Shown: piece by piece, positions 2,527 to 10,534 of the stretch
Layout: each line of letters opens with the position of its first letter
Position numbering within the stretch: position 1 is the stretch's first letter
IMG/VR virus record: IMGVR_UViG_3300001589_000008
Coordinates: 1-63,624 of that record
Length of the DNA stretch: 63,624 nt
Source: a virus
Strand: one strand, 5' to 3'
The notes under the pieces: model-generated
Seen by the model: the letters and a program-made list of their open reading frames with translations, nothing else
The model's database searches: none
Told to the model about the DNA's origin: nothing
Made by a program: the position numbers and the translations under genes

Positions 2527-4267
2527 CAGTTACGTCAGTATTACCTTCAGCTCCCGCATCTCCTCCAGTTGGTAGTTCTGCACCAGCATCAGCTGTACCT
2601 CCTTCGATAGGACCCTCAGCATCAGGTGCTTCGTCTTCCATGCCGCCAATATCTCCAGCAATTCCTGCACCGCTAATACCAGCGCCTCTCATTTCGCCTT
2701 CTGCATCAGCTGGCATTGGATCTAAAGTTTCATCGTTTTCTTCACGCCATAAACGTTCATTTTCTGCAACTTCTTCTGCCGACATTCCTAAAAATCTTTT
2801 CATCGCAAATCTATTTGAAATATATGGTATAGCAACCATCTGTGTAAATGTTGGAATACGTGCATTATCAATTTCAGATTGTCTATAACTTGCAAAGTTT
2901 TGTGGTGGTTGGAATCTTAAATCAAACATTGCTGTATCAATATTAATTCCTTTTTCTAATACATAACGTTTAAATTCTTGATTTAGTTCCTCTACAACTA
3001 AATTTTGTAATCTTTCGCAATACGTATTAAATCTTAATTCTTGTATATATGCTGTTCCTACTCTTCCGTCGTTGTATTGTGCGGCTGAATCATCTGCACC
3101 AGTAGGTAGATAGCTTGAAGGAATACGCAACCCACGAACCAACTTGTTAGTAAAGTATCTAAGGTCATCAATTTCTCCTAGGTTAGTACCACCAGGTAAT
3201 GTTTCTACCTTAGATCCACGACCTTCAGCAGTTTGTGGAAAGAAATAATCTTCATTAATTGATAAAGGATTGTAACTACTGTCTATAACATTAGTGCCTC
3301 CGCCTGTACTACTTGGGATCCTGCGTTGGTGGATCTCAGTTTTTACACGCTCAACAAATTGCATCGCTAAGTGCGATGGCATATTGCCGACATCTACATA
3401 GAACACCCTGCGTTCTGGAGCACGTTGTACCCTGTAGATGATAATAGCATCCTCTAGTAATTCTTTTTGTTTATATACTTTAAATATAGTTTCTAATAAA
3501 CTATTACCAAACGGATAATTTTGATCTAGTCCTTCACTTAAACTTAAATGTACAATATTATCTGCATCAACCGAAATTTCTCCGTCTTCAGTACTAAATC
3601 GTGATCCTGATTGTTGTGGAGCATTTCCTACCATACCTCTAACACCACCAGCTGGTTGATAGTTTCCACCACCGCCGTTTATATTTCCACTTGTTACATG
3701 TGGAGTAGTAGCAACCATATCCTTAAAGTTTAAATTAAAGTTTTTAATAACATATTGCTCTGGAGTTTTTCCTTCGCTTTCGTTTACAATAATTCTGTTA
3801 ACATTTGCACCGTCTACATGGAATAGTTTTTTAGTTTCTGGATCTCTAATAAAAAATTGATCACCATACTTAAAACAGTTCCTTAGTATTCTAAACATAC
3901 GTGTTTCAAATTTGTTTAACTTACACCATTGCTGTAGATATTGCTGTATGATAGTAGTTTCTGTATTTGTAGATTTCTTTTTGAAGTCTATAGTAAATGG
4001 GGTTCTATTCTGTGAATTTTGCTGTGAACAGAATTCTGCTAAGATATCAAGAGCCGCATTAACTTCTGAATCCATATCCATAGTGTTATACTGCCCATAA
4101 CGTTCAACTCTATTTGGGCTACCTACATAAACATCAGGTAAGTATGAACTATAATTAGTTCTTGCTGGACCTGGATTTCCGCCACCTCTTCCGCCACCTA
4201 ACGGCGAGTAGCTTCCTCCCATGTTATCACCTGTTTGAACAGGTGTAAAATATTTCTTCCAACTCAT
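2522..4267 (-). CDS. 20: Portal vertex protein, gp20
   Basis: Forms the dodecameric portal through which DNA is packaged and to which the neck attaches. At 581 residues it is close to T4 gp20 (524) and to marine homologues. Typical blocks are visible: MDSEVNAALDILAEF near residue 65, LQQWCKLNKFETRMFRILRNC near 110, the RAPERRVFYVDVGNMP block near 285, and the TLPGGTNLGEIDDLRYF and GLRIPSSYLP blocks near 360-395. The C-terminus (residues 510-581) is a Gly/Ala/Asp-rich tail. The ATG at 4267 has AGGA 8 nt upstream that overlaps the tape-measure stop codon, so it is translated in an operon with that gene. An internal Gly-rich loop around residues 195-225 interrupts the usual sequence. Confidence 0.93.
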   Translation of the reverse strand: MSWKKYFTPVQTGDNMGGSYSPLGGGRGGGNPGPARTNYSSYLPDVYVGSPNRVERYGQYNTMDMDSEVNAALDILAEFCSQQNSQNRTPFTIDFKKKSTNTETTIIQQYLQQWCKLNKFETRMFRILRNCFKYGDQFFIRDPETKKLFHVDGANVNRIIVNESEGKTPEQYVIKNFNLNFKDMVATTPHVTSGNINGGGGNYQPAGGVRGMVGNAPQQSGSRFSTEDGEISVDADNIVHLSLSEGLDQNYPFGNSLLETIFKVYKQKELLEDAIIIYRVQRAPERRVFYVDVGNMPSHLAMQFVERVKTEIHQRRIPSSTGGGTNVIDSSYNPLSINEDYFFPQTAEGRGSKVETLPGGTNLGEIDDLRYFTNKLVRGLRIPSSYLPTGADDSAAQYNDGRVGTAYIQELRFNTYCERLQNLVVEELNQEFKRYVLEKGINIDTAMFDLRFQPPQNFASYRQSEIDNARIPTFTQMVAIPYISNRFAMKRFLGMSAEEVAENERLWREENDETLDPMPADAEGEMRGAGISGAGIAGDIGGMEDEAPDAEGPIEGGTADAGAELPTGGDAGAEGNTDVTV

Positions 4268-4276
4268 ATAATTTTC

Positions 4277-6793
4277 CTAATTATAGTCACCACTTAAACT
4301 TCTGTAACCTTGTTTGTTTATAACATTACCTAAACGTAGTACTTCTAAGATACTTGCATTAGTAGTATTTAACATCGTAAGCTGATCTGAGCTACCCGAT
4401 CCGGACCCGCTACCTCCCGGTAATTTAGTATTACCAGCATTATCGCCTTTATAAAAAGGTAACCAACTATTATCTTTAGTCAATTCATCATTAATTTTTC
4501 CAAGAGCATCGCCCAACCGTTCCATTTGCTTTGCGTATTCTTTTAACCCACTAGCATCTAAATCATCACCAAACTTTGATAAACCTTCTAATGCAGTACC
4601 ACTTAGTTTTACATTGTCAATAGCTGTTGCATCAATACCTTTAAATTTATTTAAACCTTCAACAATTTTATCAAAAGGTGAATCAGCACCAAAGAAACTA
4701 GTAATACTATCTAGTACCCCACCAGCAGTAAGTGATATTAGTGCAGGTCCTAGTAATCCAAGTGATGTAGAAATTTCTGCAAAGTTTGCCGCGCCTTTCA
4801 TGTTAGCCATTTTTTCAACACCTGCGGCAATCTTTTCAACACCGTCTCCGGCCAATGAAATACCTTTTCCTGCAAGTGTTATTGCGGCGCCAGTACCAAT
4901 AAGCATAGCTGTAAATACTGCGGCACCAATTGCTACTGGTCCGTTTGCAAACATTTTTAATATTGTAGTAAATGCTTTAAATCCTAGATATACAACACCA
5001 CCAGCCGCAAGCATTGCACCTAATCCAGCTAGTCCAGCGCCTATTGTTGCTCCTGCAATCATTTTAAGTATGTCACCAAGTGCTGTAAAGCCGTTATCGG
5101 CAGCCATATCTGCACCATTTCCACCACCACCTGGTGGTCCTTCTTGTTTTACAGCCTTTTTACCAAATATAGCATCCATAGCCATTTGTTTTAATCCACT
5201 AAGTGCTGAACTAATATGAGGTTTCATTAGTTCTCCTAGTTTTGATAATCCTTTTGACAAATATACTCCTATGGTTTCCATAAGATTACCTTTTTCAAAT
5301 GCTGTAACAAGTCCTTTTAGGTGTTTGGAAAATGTATCAACATACCCTTGTACAACAACCATATCAAATCCACTTAGTGCATCTCCAACTGATACTAAAG
5401 CATCTTCAACTGTAGCAAACACTCCTGATTTTATTAATGCATCTGTTATCTTATTCTTAAGTTTTTGAATTTCTGTACTAAACGCTGTTAGTTTATCTCT
5501 TCTATCTTTAGCCGCCTTTTCTTCTTTTTTTCTAGCGGCTTCTGCTTCTTTATCAGCTGCCGTCATCTTTTTCACACTTAAATCAACGGCTGTGCCAATA
5601 GTATTAAGTTTTTCTGCAAGCTCGTTACCTTGCTTAGCCGAAACAGCCAAGTTCTTCTTAACTGCATCTGGCATAGCGTTGTACGCTACTTGAGCATCAG
5701 ACATTGCCTTATCAAATGCTTCTTGTGAAATTGTGCCTTTTTTCAGTTGTTCAACCATAGTACCTAGTTCAGGATTTAATTTTAATAAGGCCTTACCCAT
5801 CATAGTTGTTGGAACACCGTTAGTGACTACCATATCAGCAAGAGCATCACCAATCTCTTTATTTTTAGCAGTATAAAATGCTACAGTATTTCTTACTGCT
5901 TCTTCTTGTTTTCCTAATGTTTTTACATATGCTTCAAAGTTTACGTCTGCAGATCTAGCATCCATTTGATCAGCAAGTTCTCTTCTTGACTTACCTGTTA
6001 ACTTAGACAGTCTATCAAGTTCTAGTACGTATGCTCTAGCACCGTCAGTTTGTTGCTTTGAAGTCATTTGTTGAAATCTAGCACCTCTAGCCTGAATCTT
6101 CATGTAGTCGGCGGTAAACTCGCCCACTTCAGACATTGTTAATCCTAAGCTAGTAAATTGAGACGAATTTTTTGCTAGGGTAGCTTGTAGTTTACCAAAT
6201 TGTCTTACACCGGCGCCGCCGTTCATATTTAAACTTGCAAACACTTCTGAACTATTCATAACAATGCTTTTAAAGCTATCCATATCCATAGCAGTTGAGG
6301 CCGCAATTTTTCTAAATTCTTGTAAGCCTCCACCTACATCAACACCTACTGCTGACAACTCTCTAAAGTCTTCAATTTGATTATCTATTGTAGATACTAA
6401 TAACTGTCCAATAGACGCTAATGGTCCACCAAAAATAGGTATTGCACTAGCCGCACCTGCAATGTGACTAGTAAAGTCACTAATCTTAGTTCCACCAGTT
6501 AATAACTCCCCAGCTAACCCTTTAGCCGCACCAAATACTTGGCCAATACCTCGAGATAATGCATTACCTGCATTATCAGCTGACTCTTCTAATTCGTCTA
6601 ATTCTTTAGATGTTTTTCCAGTTTGTTTAGCTAGGTCTAATAGAGAGTCTTTAGCACCTCCGGCACCTCCGGCTCCTCCTCCACCACCGCCGCCCTGTTG
6701 CATAGCTTTAAGTAGCTGTTTTAAAGTTGCTTCGGTGGCCGCGTTCTCGAGGTTTACTTCCTCTTGACCAATAGTACCTGTAACTTCTGCCAT
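4277..6793 (-). CDS. Putative tail tape-measure protein (gp29-like role)
   Basis: 838 residues, predicted to set tail length inside the tube and perhaps to act during DNA ejection. Visible features: a Gly-run linker (residues 35-47), long Ala/Lys/Glu-rich helical stretches, a strongly basic coiled-coil-like segment (AADKEAEAARKKEEKAAKDRR, about 405-425), and hydrophobic Gly/Ala-rich segments near 580-640, typical of tape measures. The C-terminus has a Gly/Ser linker. T4 gp29 is 590 residues, so this one is longer. It is first in a minus-strand operon with gp20 and diverges from gp26, consistent with a tape measure beside its assembly chaperones. The call rests on composition, size and context, not on a diagnostic motif. 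Confidence 0.6.
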   Translation of the reverse strand: MAEVTGTIGQEEVNLENAATEATLKQLLKAMQQGGGGGGGAGGAGGAKDSLLDLAKQTGKTSKELDELEESADNAGNALSRGIGQVFGAAKGLAGELLTGGTKISDFTSHIAGAASAIPIFGGPLASIGQLLVSTIDNQIEDFRELSAVGVDVGGGLQEFRKIAASTAMDMDSFKSIVMNSSEVFASLNMNGGAGVRQFGKLQATLAKNSSQFTSLGLTMSEVGEFTADYMKIQARGARFQQMTSKQQTDGARAYVLELDRLSKLTGKSRRELADQMDARSADVNFEAYVKTLGKQEEAVRNTVAFYTAKNKEIGDALADMVVTNGVPTTMMGKALLKLNPELGTMVEQLKKGTISQEAFDKAMSDAQVAYNAMPDAVKKNLAVSAKQGNELAEKLNTIGTAVDLSVKKMTAADKEAEAARKKEEKAAKDRRDKLTAFSTEIQKLKNKITDALIKSGVFATVEDALVSVGDALSGFDMVVVQGYVDTFSKHLKGLVTAFEKGNLMETIGVYLSKGLSKLGELMKPHISSALSGLKQMAMDAIFGKKAVKQEGPPGGGGNGADMAADNGFTALGDILKMIAGATIGAGLAGLGAMLAAGGVVYLGFKAFTTILKMFANGPVAIGAAVFTAMLIGTGAAITLAGKGISLAGDGVEKIAAGVEKMANMKGAANFAEISTSLGLLGPALISLTAGGVLDSITSFFGADSPFDKIVEGLNKFKGIDATAIDNVKLSGTALEGLSKFGDDLDASGLKEYAKQMERLGDALGKINDELTKDNSWLPFYKGDNAGNTKLPGGSGSGSGSSDQLTMLNTTNASILEVLRLGNVINKQGYRSLSGDYN

Positions 6794-6870: not shown

Positions 6871-7764
6871 ATGATTGAAAATAATGCGCCGGGCGTAACA
6901 CAAATAACTGCTACAGGTGCTAACCCTTTAAAGAAATACTTTAGACAACCTAAATTATATATTACGTTGCCTAGCAAAGGTAGTTGGTATCCGTCAGGAT
7001 CAATTGCAATGTCTGAAAATAACGAACTACCAGTGTTTCCAATGACAGCTAAAGATGAATTAACTTTAAAAACACCAGATGCACTACTTAACGGAGCGGC
7101 AACTGTTGAAATTATACAAAGTTGTATTCCAAATATTAAAGATGCGTGGTTAATGCCTAGTATTGATGTTGATGCATGTTTAATTGCAATACGTATTGCA
7201 TCTTATGGTGAGCAAATGGATCTTACAATTACACCACCAGGCACTAACGAAGAAAAAGTATTTGGTTTAGATCTTAGACAGCTATTAGAAACTATGGGTC
7301 AATTTAATTTTGTTGAAGATGTTCCAATGAAATCTAAAGATTTTCAAGTCAAAGTTAGACCTGTAACTTACAAAGAATTTACAGCCGCATCGTTGTCTAC
7401 GTTTGAAGAACAAAGAATGTTTACTATTGTTAATGATGCTGAAATGCAACAAGAAGAAAAACTTGAAAAGTTTGGACAAACTTTTACTAAACTTAGAGAT
7501 CTTACAGTTGGTATTATTACTGATAGTATTGTATCAATTACTGTTGAAGATAATGTAGTAACTGATAGATCACATATTACTGACTTCATTAGTAATTCTG
7601 ATAAAGAAGTATTTAAAGATATTACAGATCATATTGAAATACAAAAAGAAAACTTTGCTGTTAAACCAATGACAGTTAATTCAGACCCGGAGCAAATTGC
7701 TAATGGCGCACCAGAGACTTACGAAGTGCCCATTGTATTTGATCAAGCAAGTTTTTTCGGATAA
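6871..7764 (+). CDS. 26: Baseplate hub/assembly protein, gp26-like (zero-frame product)
   Basis: 297 residues. The start of the conserved domain (LYITLPSKGSWYPSGS, PVFPMTAKDEL, TPDALLNGAATVEIIQSCIP, residues 30-100) is the hallmark of the T4 gp26 family (Pfam T4_baseplate type). In T4 gp26 and gp51 are needed to build the baseplate hub around the tape measure. The ATG has GGAG 7 nt upstream. It is longer than T4 gp26 (208 aa), with an acidic helical C-terminal half. The last codons (agt ttt ttc gga taa) form a slippery heptamer followed by a hairpin, so a fraction of ribosomes may shift to -1 and add 76 residues from the next frame. Position beside the tape-measure gene supports an assembly-chaperone role. 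Confidence 0.85.
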   Translation: MIENNAPGVTQITATGANPLKKYFRQPKLYITLPSKGSWYPSGSIAMSENNELPVFPMTAKDELTLKTPDALLNGAATVEIIQSCIPNIKDAWLMPSIDVDACLIAIRIASYGEQMDLTITPPGTNEEKVFGLDLRQLLETMGQFNFVEDVPMKSKDFQVKVRPVTYKEFTAASLSTFEEQRMFTIVNDAEMQQEEKLEKFGQTFTKLRDLTVGIITDSIVSITVEDNVVTDRSHITDFISNSDKEVFKDITDHIEIQKENFAVKPMTVNSDPEQIANGAPETYEVPIVFDQASFFG

Positions 7765-7988
7765 GGATCATCAACTGGTCAATTGACGAGATCCTAAGAG
7801 AAGTAGATGACCTAAAAGGACAAGCAAAAGAATTCCGGCATTCAATCTTAAAATTGATGTGGTATATGCGAGGTAGTATTAGTATGGACGAGGCATTTAT
7901 GCTTAGTCACGAAGATCGAAGTCTTATCAATGACATTGTTAAAGAAAATTACGAAGATACTAAAAAGTCCGGATTACCGTTAATTTAA
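7743..7988 (+). CDS. -1 frame extension of gp26, gp51-position ORF
   Basis: An open frame between a TGA at 7740-7742 and a TAA at 7986-7988, encoding after the slip site about 76 residues: RIRIINWSIDEILREV, then KEFRHSILKLMWYMRGSIS, then MDEAFMLSHEDRSLINDIV, ending KSGLPLI. It looks like a real helical protein but has no good start: ATA/ATC/ATT codons near the beginning, and the first TTG/ATG (7854/7857) removes the first third. Frameshifting from gp26 explains this and would give a fusion of about 372 residues. In T4 gene 51, a hub-assembly factor, directly follows gene 26, so this may be its counterpart. It meets the next minus-strand gene tail to tail, their stop codons overlapping. Confidence 0.65.
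   Translation, partial: SSKFFRIRIINWSIDEILREVDDLKGQAKEFRHSILKLMWYMRGSISMDEAFMLSHEDRSLINDIVKENYEDTKKSGLPLI
7752..7795 (+). promoter_or_regulatory. Probable programmed -1 ribosomal frameshift signal
   Basis: A heptamer T TTT TTC at 7752-7758 is in the correct phase of gp26 (X XXY YYZ). It is followed by a 5-nt spacer and an inverted repeat, AGGATC at 7764-7769 with GATCCT at 7790-7795; a 10-nt palindrome (GTCAATTGAC) lies in the loop. Slipping by -1 leads straight into the open frame that ends at 7988. All parts are seen in the sequence; use in the cell is inferred by analogy with lambda G/GT-type tail assembly chaperones. Confidence 0.65.
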
Positions 7989-10534
7989 ACATCCATTAGT
8001 GGTGCTGGTGGTACCGGAGCTGGAGGTGGTCCTCCAGGAGGTATTGTTGAAGCAGTTACTTTAGTTGCTCCTGGCACCTTTGGCGCTCCTACTGGTGGTT
8101 TCTTAGTTCCTAATAGCATTGCTTTTACTTCTGCCGCAACACCAGCTTTTTTAATTTCATCTGCAAGGCTTGTTAACATCTTTTCACTAGCCTTTATGTT
8201 GTCCATACCGCCACTGTAATTTGCTTTTGATTTTTCATCAGGTGATACTTTTCCATCTTTATTGACGTCTGCATCATCAAATCCGTCACCATCTGCATCC
8301 TTTGGAGCATCTCCTGCTTGTGCATCATCTTTTGGTATTGGATCGCCTGTGTTATCGTCCTTGCCGTCACCATCTGCATCTACCGGTTTGTCCGCTGTAG
8401 GCTCGGGTGCTTTTGTCTTTGGATCTAGTTCAACTTTATTAGATTGACCAATTGATACAATTTGTTCGTCAGCTAATCCATTATCACTAAGTATGTTCAT
8501 TACAGCTCCAGTATCAGTTGGACTACCAGCGCCTTTCCATGCTTTCATTAATTTTTCTTTTGTTACTTTATTAGCAAGTTGCTTACCTGCGTCTTTAACA
8601 CCTGCTACAGTTTTACCTATACCTTTTTGAGCCGCGGCTCCTACAGCATCAACACCTTTGTTTACAGTTTTAAGTAGACTACTTCCTGCACCCATTGCGG
8701 CTTTGCCAATTTTACTACCAATTGAGTTTGGATTGTCTAAAGGTAACTCACCTTGTTTAGGTGGTGCTTCTGCAATAAACTGCTCAAATAAATGTGTGTA
8801 TGCTTCTTCGTAGTCTATAGACTCAGTATTTTTAACACCTTGTCCGCCTTTAAGATCTAATTCTCCTTGTTCAGGTTTTCCTTTTATAACTTCCGCAGTT
8901 GCCAGGGCACTACCTATAGCTACTGCCGCTGTAGCTTGAGCAATTTTCTGTAATGTAGTATCAAGATCTGTTGTCATGCTTCCTGATGTATTAGGATTTA
9001 GAACATCTCCCCATATTGTATCTTTAAGCTCACCATCAGGTAAATTTTCTAAAATTTGCTCTAATTCTTTTGTCATAGAATTTGGCATCATTACTGCTTT
9101 TTCAAGTTTATATACAATATTACCATCAGCATCTACACCTTCAATGCTTACTTGAGCAGTTCCACCATATACCGTTCCGTCATCTAAAGTTTTAGTTACG
9201 TTTGATTTAAACACCTCTCCAACTTTTACATTCTCAGGAACACCATCTGCTTGTAAATCATCTCCAACTTGTATTGAATTTTCTGCTGACATATTAACGC
9301 CTAAATATTCATCTTGGGCAATAGCTCTATCTAAACCTTGCAACCTTTGTATTTCATCAATATTCTCTTGTGTTAAGCCTGCATCAAGTAATTTTTCTGT
9401 ATTAGCTGTTACCCATTCATTGTCAGGATAGTCTGCAGAATTTATTCCATTAGCATTTAATTGCTCTGCGTCTATCTTTGCAACAACTTCTGTTTCAAGC
9501 TCGCCAGTACCTACACCGTCGGCATCCTTAACTTCAGAGCCATATTTTCTTATCTCTGTATCGGTACCTTTGATATCAAATTCTGATTGAACTTGGTCAA
9601 TAGCTCCTTTTAAATTTTCAGCATCTGGTGCAAGCTCAAGTATCTTAGCATCTAGTTTTGCTAATTGATCAGTAGCTAACTTACTAGCGTCAGCATCAAG
9701 GTCGCTTTTTATAATTTCTGCTAAAGCACCTCTTGTTTGTACAAGGTCTTTAGCTGATTCTGCATCAAGGTCAGTAATACTTGTTGCGTCCATTGCACTA
9801 AGTCCATCAACATCAATTTCACCTGAAGCACTATTAATAAGTGTTTGTGTAACATCACCTGGTAATAAGTCTTTAATAGCACCGCCTAGTGCGCCTGCAA
9901 CAGCACCAATTGCCGCTCCCTTAACGCCTTTACCAACTGCTGTAGAAAGTTTATCACCTTTCATAGTATTGTTAGCCATCTTAATAAAGAAACCAATTGC
10001 CGCACCACTAAGTATTCCGCCACTTGCAAATGCAAGCAATGATGTCATTGCACCAATAATAAATGCACTCTTAGCAGGACTTTCTTTTGCAAAGTCTCCC
10101 CAAGATTCAATTCCCTTAAGAACTTTTTGACCTACTGGATTACCTTGTAGTTGTTTCTTTAATTGTAATTTAAGTTTTTCAAACTGTGCATCAAAGTTTT
10201 TAATTGGTCCGCTGTTTTGTGCTTGTGTTGCTAACTTGTTAAGTGTATCAGTTATCTTTGCAGTTTGTTTAGCAATACTGCCGCCTGCTTTACCTAATAC
10301 AGTTTTATTATTACCGCCGGCAGCCGCACTTGCTTCTGCAGATGTAAAGATAGCATCAATTTGCTTAGGAGTAAGTTCAGCTTCTAAAAGTTTACTATAA
10401 CTTTCCATTAATGGCCAAAGAGTTTTCTCCCAAGTACCAATATGTATACGCTGTGCTTCAGTAAGCACATTCCAACTTTCATTTAGAATAGTTTGTGATT
10501 TTAAATTATAATTTGTAATTTCTGTAACTTGCAT
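7985..10534 (-). CDS. Large putative virion-internal protein with glycine zipper and Ca-binding-type repeats
   Basis: 849 residues, family not identified with certainty; similar long proteins of unknown function occur in marine T4-like phages. Seen in order: a helical N-terminus (1-60) with two (L/I)xE-A motifs (LTE-A at 24-27, LLE-A at 49-52) of the kind cut by gp21-type proteases; a hydrophobic Gly/Ala-zipper segment (about 156-225) able to insert in membranes; an acidic Asp/Ala-rich middle; a third site, IAE-AP, near 585; Asp-rich DADGDG loops like EF-hand or thrombospondin-3 repeats near 716-775; and a Pro-rich end. It is coupled to the upstream gene by TAATG. A protein packaged in the head and ejected with DNA would fit; a tail component is the alternative. 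Confidence 0.5.
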   Translation of the reverse strand: MQVTEITNYNLKSQTILNESWNVLTEAQRIHIGTWEKTLWPLMESYSKLLEAELTPKQIDAIFTSAEASAAAGGNNKTVLGKAGGSIAKQTAKITDTLNKLATQAQNSGPIKNFDAQFEKLKLQLKKQLQGNPVGQKVLKGIESWGDFAKESPAKSAFIIGAMTSLLAFASGGILSGAAIGFFIKMANNTMKGDKLSTAVGKGVKGAAIGAVAGALGGAIKDLLPGDVTQTLINSASGEIDVDGLSAMDATSITDLDAESAKDLVQTRGALAEIIKSDLDADASKLATDQLAKLDAKILELAPDAENLKGAIDQVQSEFDIKGTDTEIRKYGSEVKDADGVGTGELETEVVAKIDAEQLNANGINSADYPDNEWVTANTEKLLDAGLTQENIDEIQRLQGLDRAIAQDEYLGVNMSAENSIQVGDDLQADGVPENVKVGEVFKSNVTKTLDDGTVYGGTAQVSIEGVDADGNIVYKLEKAVMMPNSMTKELEQILENLPDGELKDTIWGDVLNPNTSGSMTTDLDTTLQKIAQATAAVAIGSALATAEVIKGKPEQGELDLKGGQGVKNTESIDYEEAYTHLFEQFIAEAPPKQGELPLDNPNSIGSKIGKAAMGAGSSLLKTVNKGVDAVGAAAQKGIGKTVAGVKDAGKQLANKVTKEKLMKAWKGAGSPTDTGAVMNILSDNGLADEQIVSIGQSNKVELDPKTKAPEPTADKPVDADGDGKDDNTGDPIPKDDAQAGDAPKDADGDGFDDADVNKDGKVSPDEKSKANYSGGMDNIKASEKMLTSLADEIKKAGVAAEVKAMLLGTKKPPVGAPKVPGATKVTASTIPPGGPPPAPVPPAPLMDV

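Follow-up and report, generated by a model that had tools for sequence, protein, structure and literature searches.

A probable T4 gp26/gp51-family tail assembly chaperone gene with a putative programmed −1 frameshift in a jumbo marine phage

Tail assembly in many phages depends on a gene read in two ways. In lambda G/GT, a −1 slip near the 3′ end of the gene yields a short isoform and a scarce long one, which work by their ratio, and this G–T frameshift has been called widespread ‘except T4’ (PMC5009743). One review counts both gp26 and gp51 of T4 among the hub assembly chaperones; of the two, gp51 is indispensable, has no known function and is missing from the final particle (PMC3004832). 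According to the papers that cite it (PMC10885494, PMC12846349), the study of Vladimirov, Gautam & Davidson 2022 identified the tail assembly chaperones of T4-like phages; in these citing papers, some such phages are described as using poly-T frameshifting and others as having a short gene plus a fused long gene. A link between genes 26 and 51 and frameshifting is thus already published for T4-like phages, and the locus described here is not new in kind. A related puzzle is that cyanophage gp51 has ∼20% of the usual length, its first ∼200 residues being missing, which was left unexplained (Sullivan et al. 2010; PMC3037559). Added here are the jumbo phages, a quantified conservation of site and stem, a Shine–Dalgarno (SD)-like element in cyanophages and a tree bearing on duplication.

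The locus lies in a stretch of 63,624 nt (hereafter the window), which comes from a giant (jumbo) marine phage. Very probably it encodes a T4 gp26/gp51-family tail assembly chaperone in two isoforms, through −1 frameshifting, with the T4 pair derived from such a gene by duplication. Its features are as follows.

4277..6793, minus strand: divergent neighbour, tape-measure candidate of 838 aa (phrog_14121, RaK2 homologue)
6871..7764, plus strand: gp26-like gene, 0-frame product of 297 aa, putative short isoform (TAC-N-like; PF12322, phrog_150, AlphaFold/BFVD)
7752..7758, plus strand: slippery heptamer T TTT TTC, in phase and conserved across relatives
7759..7763, plus strand: 5-nt spacer, comprising the final sense codon of the 0 frame and the first letters of the TAA stop (7762–7764)
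7764..7795, plus strand: putative stimulatory stem-loop, AGGATC (7764–7769) pairing with GATCCT (7790–7795) (covariation, MFE)
7758..7988, plus strand: −1 frame C-terminal extension of 76 aa plus stop; the predicted fusion has 372 aa (TAC-NC-like)

The gp26-like ORF ends in AGT TTT TTC GGA TAA (7750–7764), which places the heptamer in the X XXY YYZ phase, one codon ahead of the stop. Codon-level reading of the window confirmed the in-phase heptamer, the 5-nt spacer and the AGGATC/GATCCT stem of the original prediction. From position 7758 the −1 frame stays open for 76 codons, up to a TAA at 7986–7988. Its earliest in-frame candidate starts are TTG 7854 and ATG 7857, i.e. codons 33 and 34, so that no start covers the whole tail. 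A chance occurrence of the heptamer was considered and rejected: the window has 21 copies of TTTTTTC, both strands counted, and only the one at 7752 combines the end of a long ORF (301 codons open before it and 3 up to the stop) with an extended −1 frame (76 codons). Decisive in this respect is its conservation in relatives.

The 0-frame protein belongs to PF12322, T4_baseplate (49.3 bits versus a cut-off of 24.5, E 6.7e-13), and to phrog_150, baseplate hub (E 1.9e-14). Its AlphaFold model (pLDDT 86) has T4-like baseplate hub assembly proteins as best BFVD matches, and the tail is modelled as helical (pLDDT 88). Foldseek comparison with the PDB gave no match at E<=0.001 for the gp26 model and no match for the tail model; sequence searches of the PDB returned nothing relevant, and a second structure comparison (VIA) gave generic helical matches only, with Z<8. 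The BFVD matches of the gp26 model also include fold matches to uncharacterised proteins of 500 aa in Erwinia phages vB_EamM_Special G and phiEaH2 and in Ralstonia phages RSF1 and RP12, which suggests, at the level of predicted structure, that these jumbo phages may have a gp26-like chaperone too.

A scan with the single protein found only two relatives, and tblastn collected 61 phage records, all with <60% identity and mostly from jumbo phages, the named ones having genomes of 287–490 kb. Aligning the junction in relatives, the check put forward with the prediction, showed that the heptamer and both frames are kept. T TTT TTC together with a homologous −1 tail is present in 16 of 17 jumbo relatives (named phages and locus L001); XacN1, and likewise Stenotrophomonas phage CM1, have T TTT TTT. 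Among the IMG/VR loci, the heptamer stands one codon before the stop in all 80 of cyanophage type and occurs in the same phase in all 95 assessable loci of jumbo type; since some of these loci are the same phages as named records and all the sequences are related, such counts, and those of the stimulators below, are not numbers of independent events. KVP40, phiAS5 and PhiW-14 also have T TTT TTC, and variants are T TTT TTT in phiM7 and HTVC008M and T TTT TTG in Rhizobium phage RHph_Y68. In the latter (locus L126, ∼3180–3196), T TTT TTG encodes Phe-Leu and is followed by a −1 tail, so the site can vary while its phase is kept. The codon preceding Phe-Phe ends in T in every case, although the residue varies (Ser, Ala, Asn, Asp or Gly in cyanophages; Ser, Asn, His, Arg or Thr in jumbo types). 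The other Phe-Phe pairs of the same genes never use T TTT TTC (0/118; 0/79 and 0/39), as against 175/175 at the junction of the IMG/VR loci. Thus, constraint on the in-phase X XXY YYZ heptamer exceeds that on the protein. This pattern also bears on the idea that the −1 product arises from RNA polymerase slipping on the six-T run of the junction rather than from the ribosome. For productive transcriptional slippage, six T make a short run; in each of the 175 IMG/VR loci the run is broken by the C that ends the second Phe codon; and a conserved RNA stem at +5 nt suits ribosomal frameshifting. Polymerase slippage is hence extremely improbable.

The −1 frame is itself a coding frame. Median pN/pS of the tail in the window clade is 0.25 in the −1 frame versus 1.15 and 1.72 in the other two, and is 0.20 in cyanophages; on these ratios, purifying selection acts on the tail in the −1 frame and in no other. 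Homologous tails are present in all relatives. The prediction of a protein-like −1 frame lacking a usable start was therefore borne out, given the pN/pS of 0.25 and the absence of starts before codon 33. Neither Pfam nor PHROGs recognised a family for the window tail. The cyanophage tail matches gp51 in hhalign with a probability of 97%, and the window-type tails taken alone match the cyanophage and T4 gp51 tails weakly, with pooled probabilities of 37% and 5%, respectively (range for gp51, 0.7–5%). The complete window-type fusion aligns with the cyanophage fusion at 94.6% with FFR in register, and it is this alignment, together with position, that would relate the window tail to those of cyanophages and gp51.

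The −1 ORF might instead be a small gene of its own (‘gp51’), with no frameshift and with translation reinitiated at, or coupled to, a start codon close to the gp26 stop. Existing annotations read it in that way: P-SSM2 (gp26 plus a short gp51), KVP40 (a small ORF noted as similar to the gp51 C-terminus), 121Q and others have separate ATG-started genes, and an ATG stands at tail codon 4 in 68 of 80 cyanophage-type loci. In Vibrio phage YC (Ackermannviridae; locus L127, 3150–3300), a gp26-like gene has no heptamer and the ATG of a small −1 ORF overlaps its stop. An ATG-started second gene with no slippery site is the pattern named beforehand as contrary to frameshifting; it is absent from the window clade and from cyanophages, and was seen only in this distant phage, which has apparently lost frameshifting, judging from its junction. 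Several facts oppose an independent gene elsewhere. Across the window clade and the cyanophages, start codons in the tail come and go and the heptamer stays constant; the window tail reaches its first ATG at codon 34, and that of relative L225 is free of ATG, GTG and TTG over its full length. The codon before Phe-Phe ends in T throughout, whatever its residue, the tail residues that precede the ATG are conserved, and in T4 gp51 the tail is fused in frame. An independent small gene is accordingly very unlikely.

A further sign of a programmed site is found downstream. Pairing in the AGGATC/GATCCT stem holds for 92.6% of cells over 61 distinct sequences, versus 24–52% in slid controls, and compensatory changes occur at three pairs in 17 cells (0/500 shuffles). 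The first paired base is most commonly at +5 in the window clade (35/76); a covarying stem thus stands within the 5–9 nt at which a downstream stimulatory structure is looked for at frameshift sites. When the 48 nt after the heptamer were compared with synonymous-codon shuffles of the same tail, the RNA was more stable than the shuffles in the window clade (mean z −1.97, 76 sequences) and in cyanophages (mean z −2.78), and RaK2-type relatives had no excess of structure in the same comparison (mean z −0.29). The cyanophage stem has 11 bp, stands at an identical 5-nt spacing and likewise covaries. RNAalifold over whole-group sequences gave little signal for cyanophages, and the named stems were counted directly in its place. 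Cyanophage loci (L041–L120) have in addition an SD-like GAGGG/GGAGG 10–14 nt upstream of the heptamer, ending 10 nt upstream, which resembles the internal SD stimulator of dnaX; GAG is present there in 72/80 loci versus 30% elsewhere and is kept beyond codon usage. Collectively, heptamer invariance, selection in the −1 frame, stem covariation and the start-free tail of L225 support, at sequence level, the programmed −1 frameshift first proposed, and with it a gene that would give a short and a long isoform as G/GT does.

The relation to T4 follows from comparison of the two halves of the gene. T4 gp26 and gp51 both belong to PF12322 and are paralogs of each other. A cyanophage fusion profile aligns with T4 gp26 up to the junction only (column 240) and with T4-like gp51 across the junction to the C-terminus; gp26 corresponds to the short product and gp51 to the long product that runs through the junction. 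In T4-type gp26, Phe-Phe is retained but spelled TTC TTT or G TTT TTT, and the −1 frame closes at once. In a maximum likelihood tree, T4-type gp26 and gp51 form sister clades with moderate support (87/65), next to the frameshifting KVP40 and phiAS5 sequences, which fits a duplication of a frameshift gene, within Straboviridae. The anticipated link between the separate T4 genes and G/GT-type frameshifting is upheld by both profile alignments and tree. The −1 ORF had also been labelled as standing in the ‘gp51 position’. This suits cyanophages, where P-SSM2 has gp26 followed by a short gp51, and not T4, whose genes 26 and 51 point away from each other on opposite strands. The 2022 abstract of Vladimirov, Gautam and Davidson is said to name genes 26 and 51. 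For cyanophage gp51, the missing part would be gp26 itself, joined to the tail by the frameshift, which accounts for its truncated appearance.

The gene next to the gp26-like gene had been called the tape-measure gene. A divergent neighbour is indeed there, and its identity is that of a candidate: the 838-aa protein matches phrog_14121, a virion structural protein (E 6.5e-14), and its RaK2 homologue is annotated as similar to tail tape measure protein, from which a tape-measure role may be proposed. A divergent open frame of at least 300 aa occupies this position in 70 of 71 relatives; in Atu_ph07, such an adjacency is not seen. On the other side, an 849-aa ORF (7985–10534, minus strand) is convergent with the −1 tail, the stops overlapping by 4 nt. 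It has acidic repeats of DADGDGxDD type near its C-terminus, like calcium-binding loops, and no family above cut-off.

We infer that slipping occurs at this site and sets a ratio of two products. Most ribosomes would read the 0 frame to the stop at 7764 and make the 297-aa gp26-like protein. A minority, aided by the stem-loop 5 nt downstream, would move backwards by one base at T TTT TTC, where the codons TTT in the P site and TTC in the A site re-pair as TTT TTT, and would make the 372-aa fusion, helical tail of 76 aa included. If lambda G/GT is taken as a guide, the tape-measure protein may be coated by the short form, and the long form, which is the scarce one, may recruit tube subunits or couple the hub. 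In T4-type phages, gene 26 would supply the short form and gene 51 the long one, both coming from a duplicated frameshifting gene.

Frameshifting could be real and both products still be structural proteins of the baseplate hub rather than tail assembly chaperones. The family names say ‘baseplate hub’ (PF12322, phrog_150), and older genetics put gp26 in the T4 hub (reviewed in PMC3004832). The same review, however, treats gp26 and gp51 as chaperones of hub assembly, and gp51 as required and missing from the finished particle; a short and a long form are the design of the G/GT chaperones (PMC5009743), and T4-like tail assembly chaperone genes have been named by Vladimirov et al. 2022, as cited in PMC10885494 and PMC12846349. 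A purely structural role is therefore unlikely, and the chaperone role probable.

It is tempting to go further and propose, as a reading that on balance seems the better one, that frameshifting is the ancestral route to the gp26/gp51 pair across the T4-like superfamily, jumbo phages included, with a heptamer that has scarcely changed and stimulators that differ. T4 gp51 would then be a duplicated, hard-wired long isoform, and hub ‘catalyst’ and tail chaperone a single activity. For jumbo phages and many uncultivated marine viruses, the locus provides a concrete annotation, one gene with two products, in which the small ‘hypothetical’ or ‘gp51’ ORF is to be joined with gp26. It also offers a natural comparison between frameshifting and gene duplication as means of setting the short:long chaperone ratio.

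With lambda gpG/gpGT, the locus shares a −1 slip, here predicted, near the 3′ end of the gene that leads to short and long isoforms. The heptamer is another one, and the tape-measure candidate is encoded on the other strand and not downstream; the likeness is one of design. Likewise, the chaperone locus of Vandenendeviridae and Andersonviridae has a conserved poly-T −1 frameshift and short and long chaperones, with a GTTTTT motif; it is likened by design (PMC12846349). T4 gp26 and gp51 share PF12322 with the window protein, gp26 ending at the junction and gp51 running through it, but are two full genes, gp26 having no heptamer (TTC TTT) and a closed −1 frame. The systems of Vladimirov et al. 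2022, as far as described by citing papers, have the same gp26-type short form, with a long form made by poly-T frameshift or from separate genes; the present set consists of jumbo phages and uncultivated marine relatives. Closest is the cyanophage/pelagiphage pair of gp26 and short ‘gp51’ (phrog_634): it has the same heptamer, a −1 tail and a stem 5 nt downstream, and differs from the window in that its tail is of 60 aa, its stem is longer and an SD-like element, GGAGGG, stands 10 nt upstream, which the window lacks.
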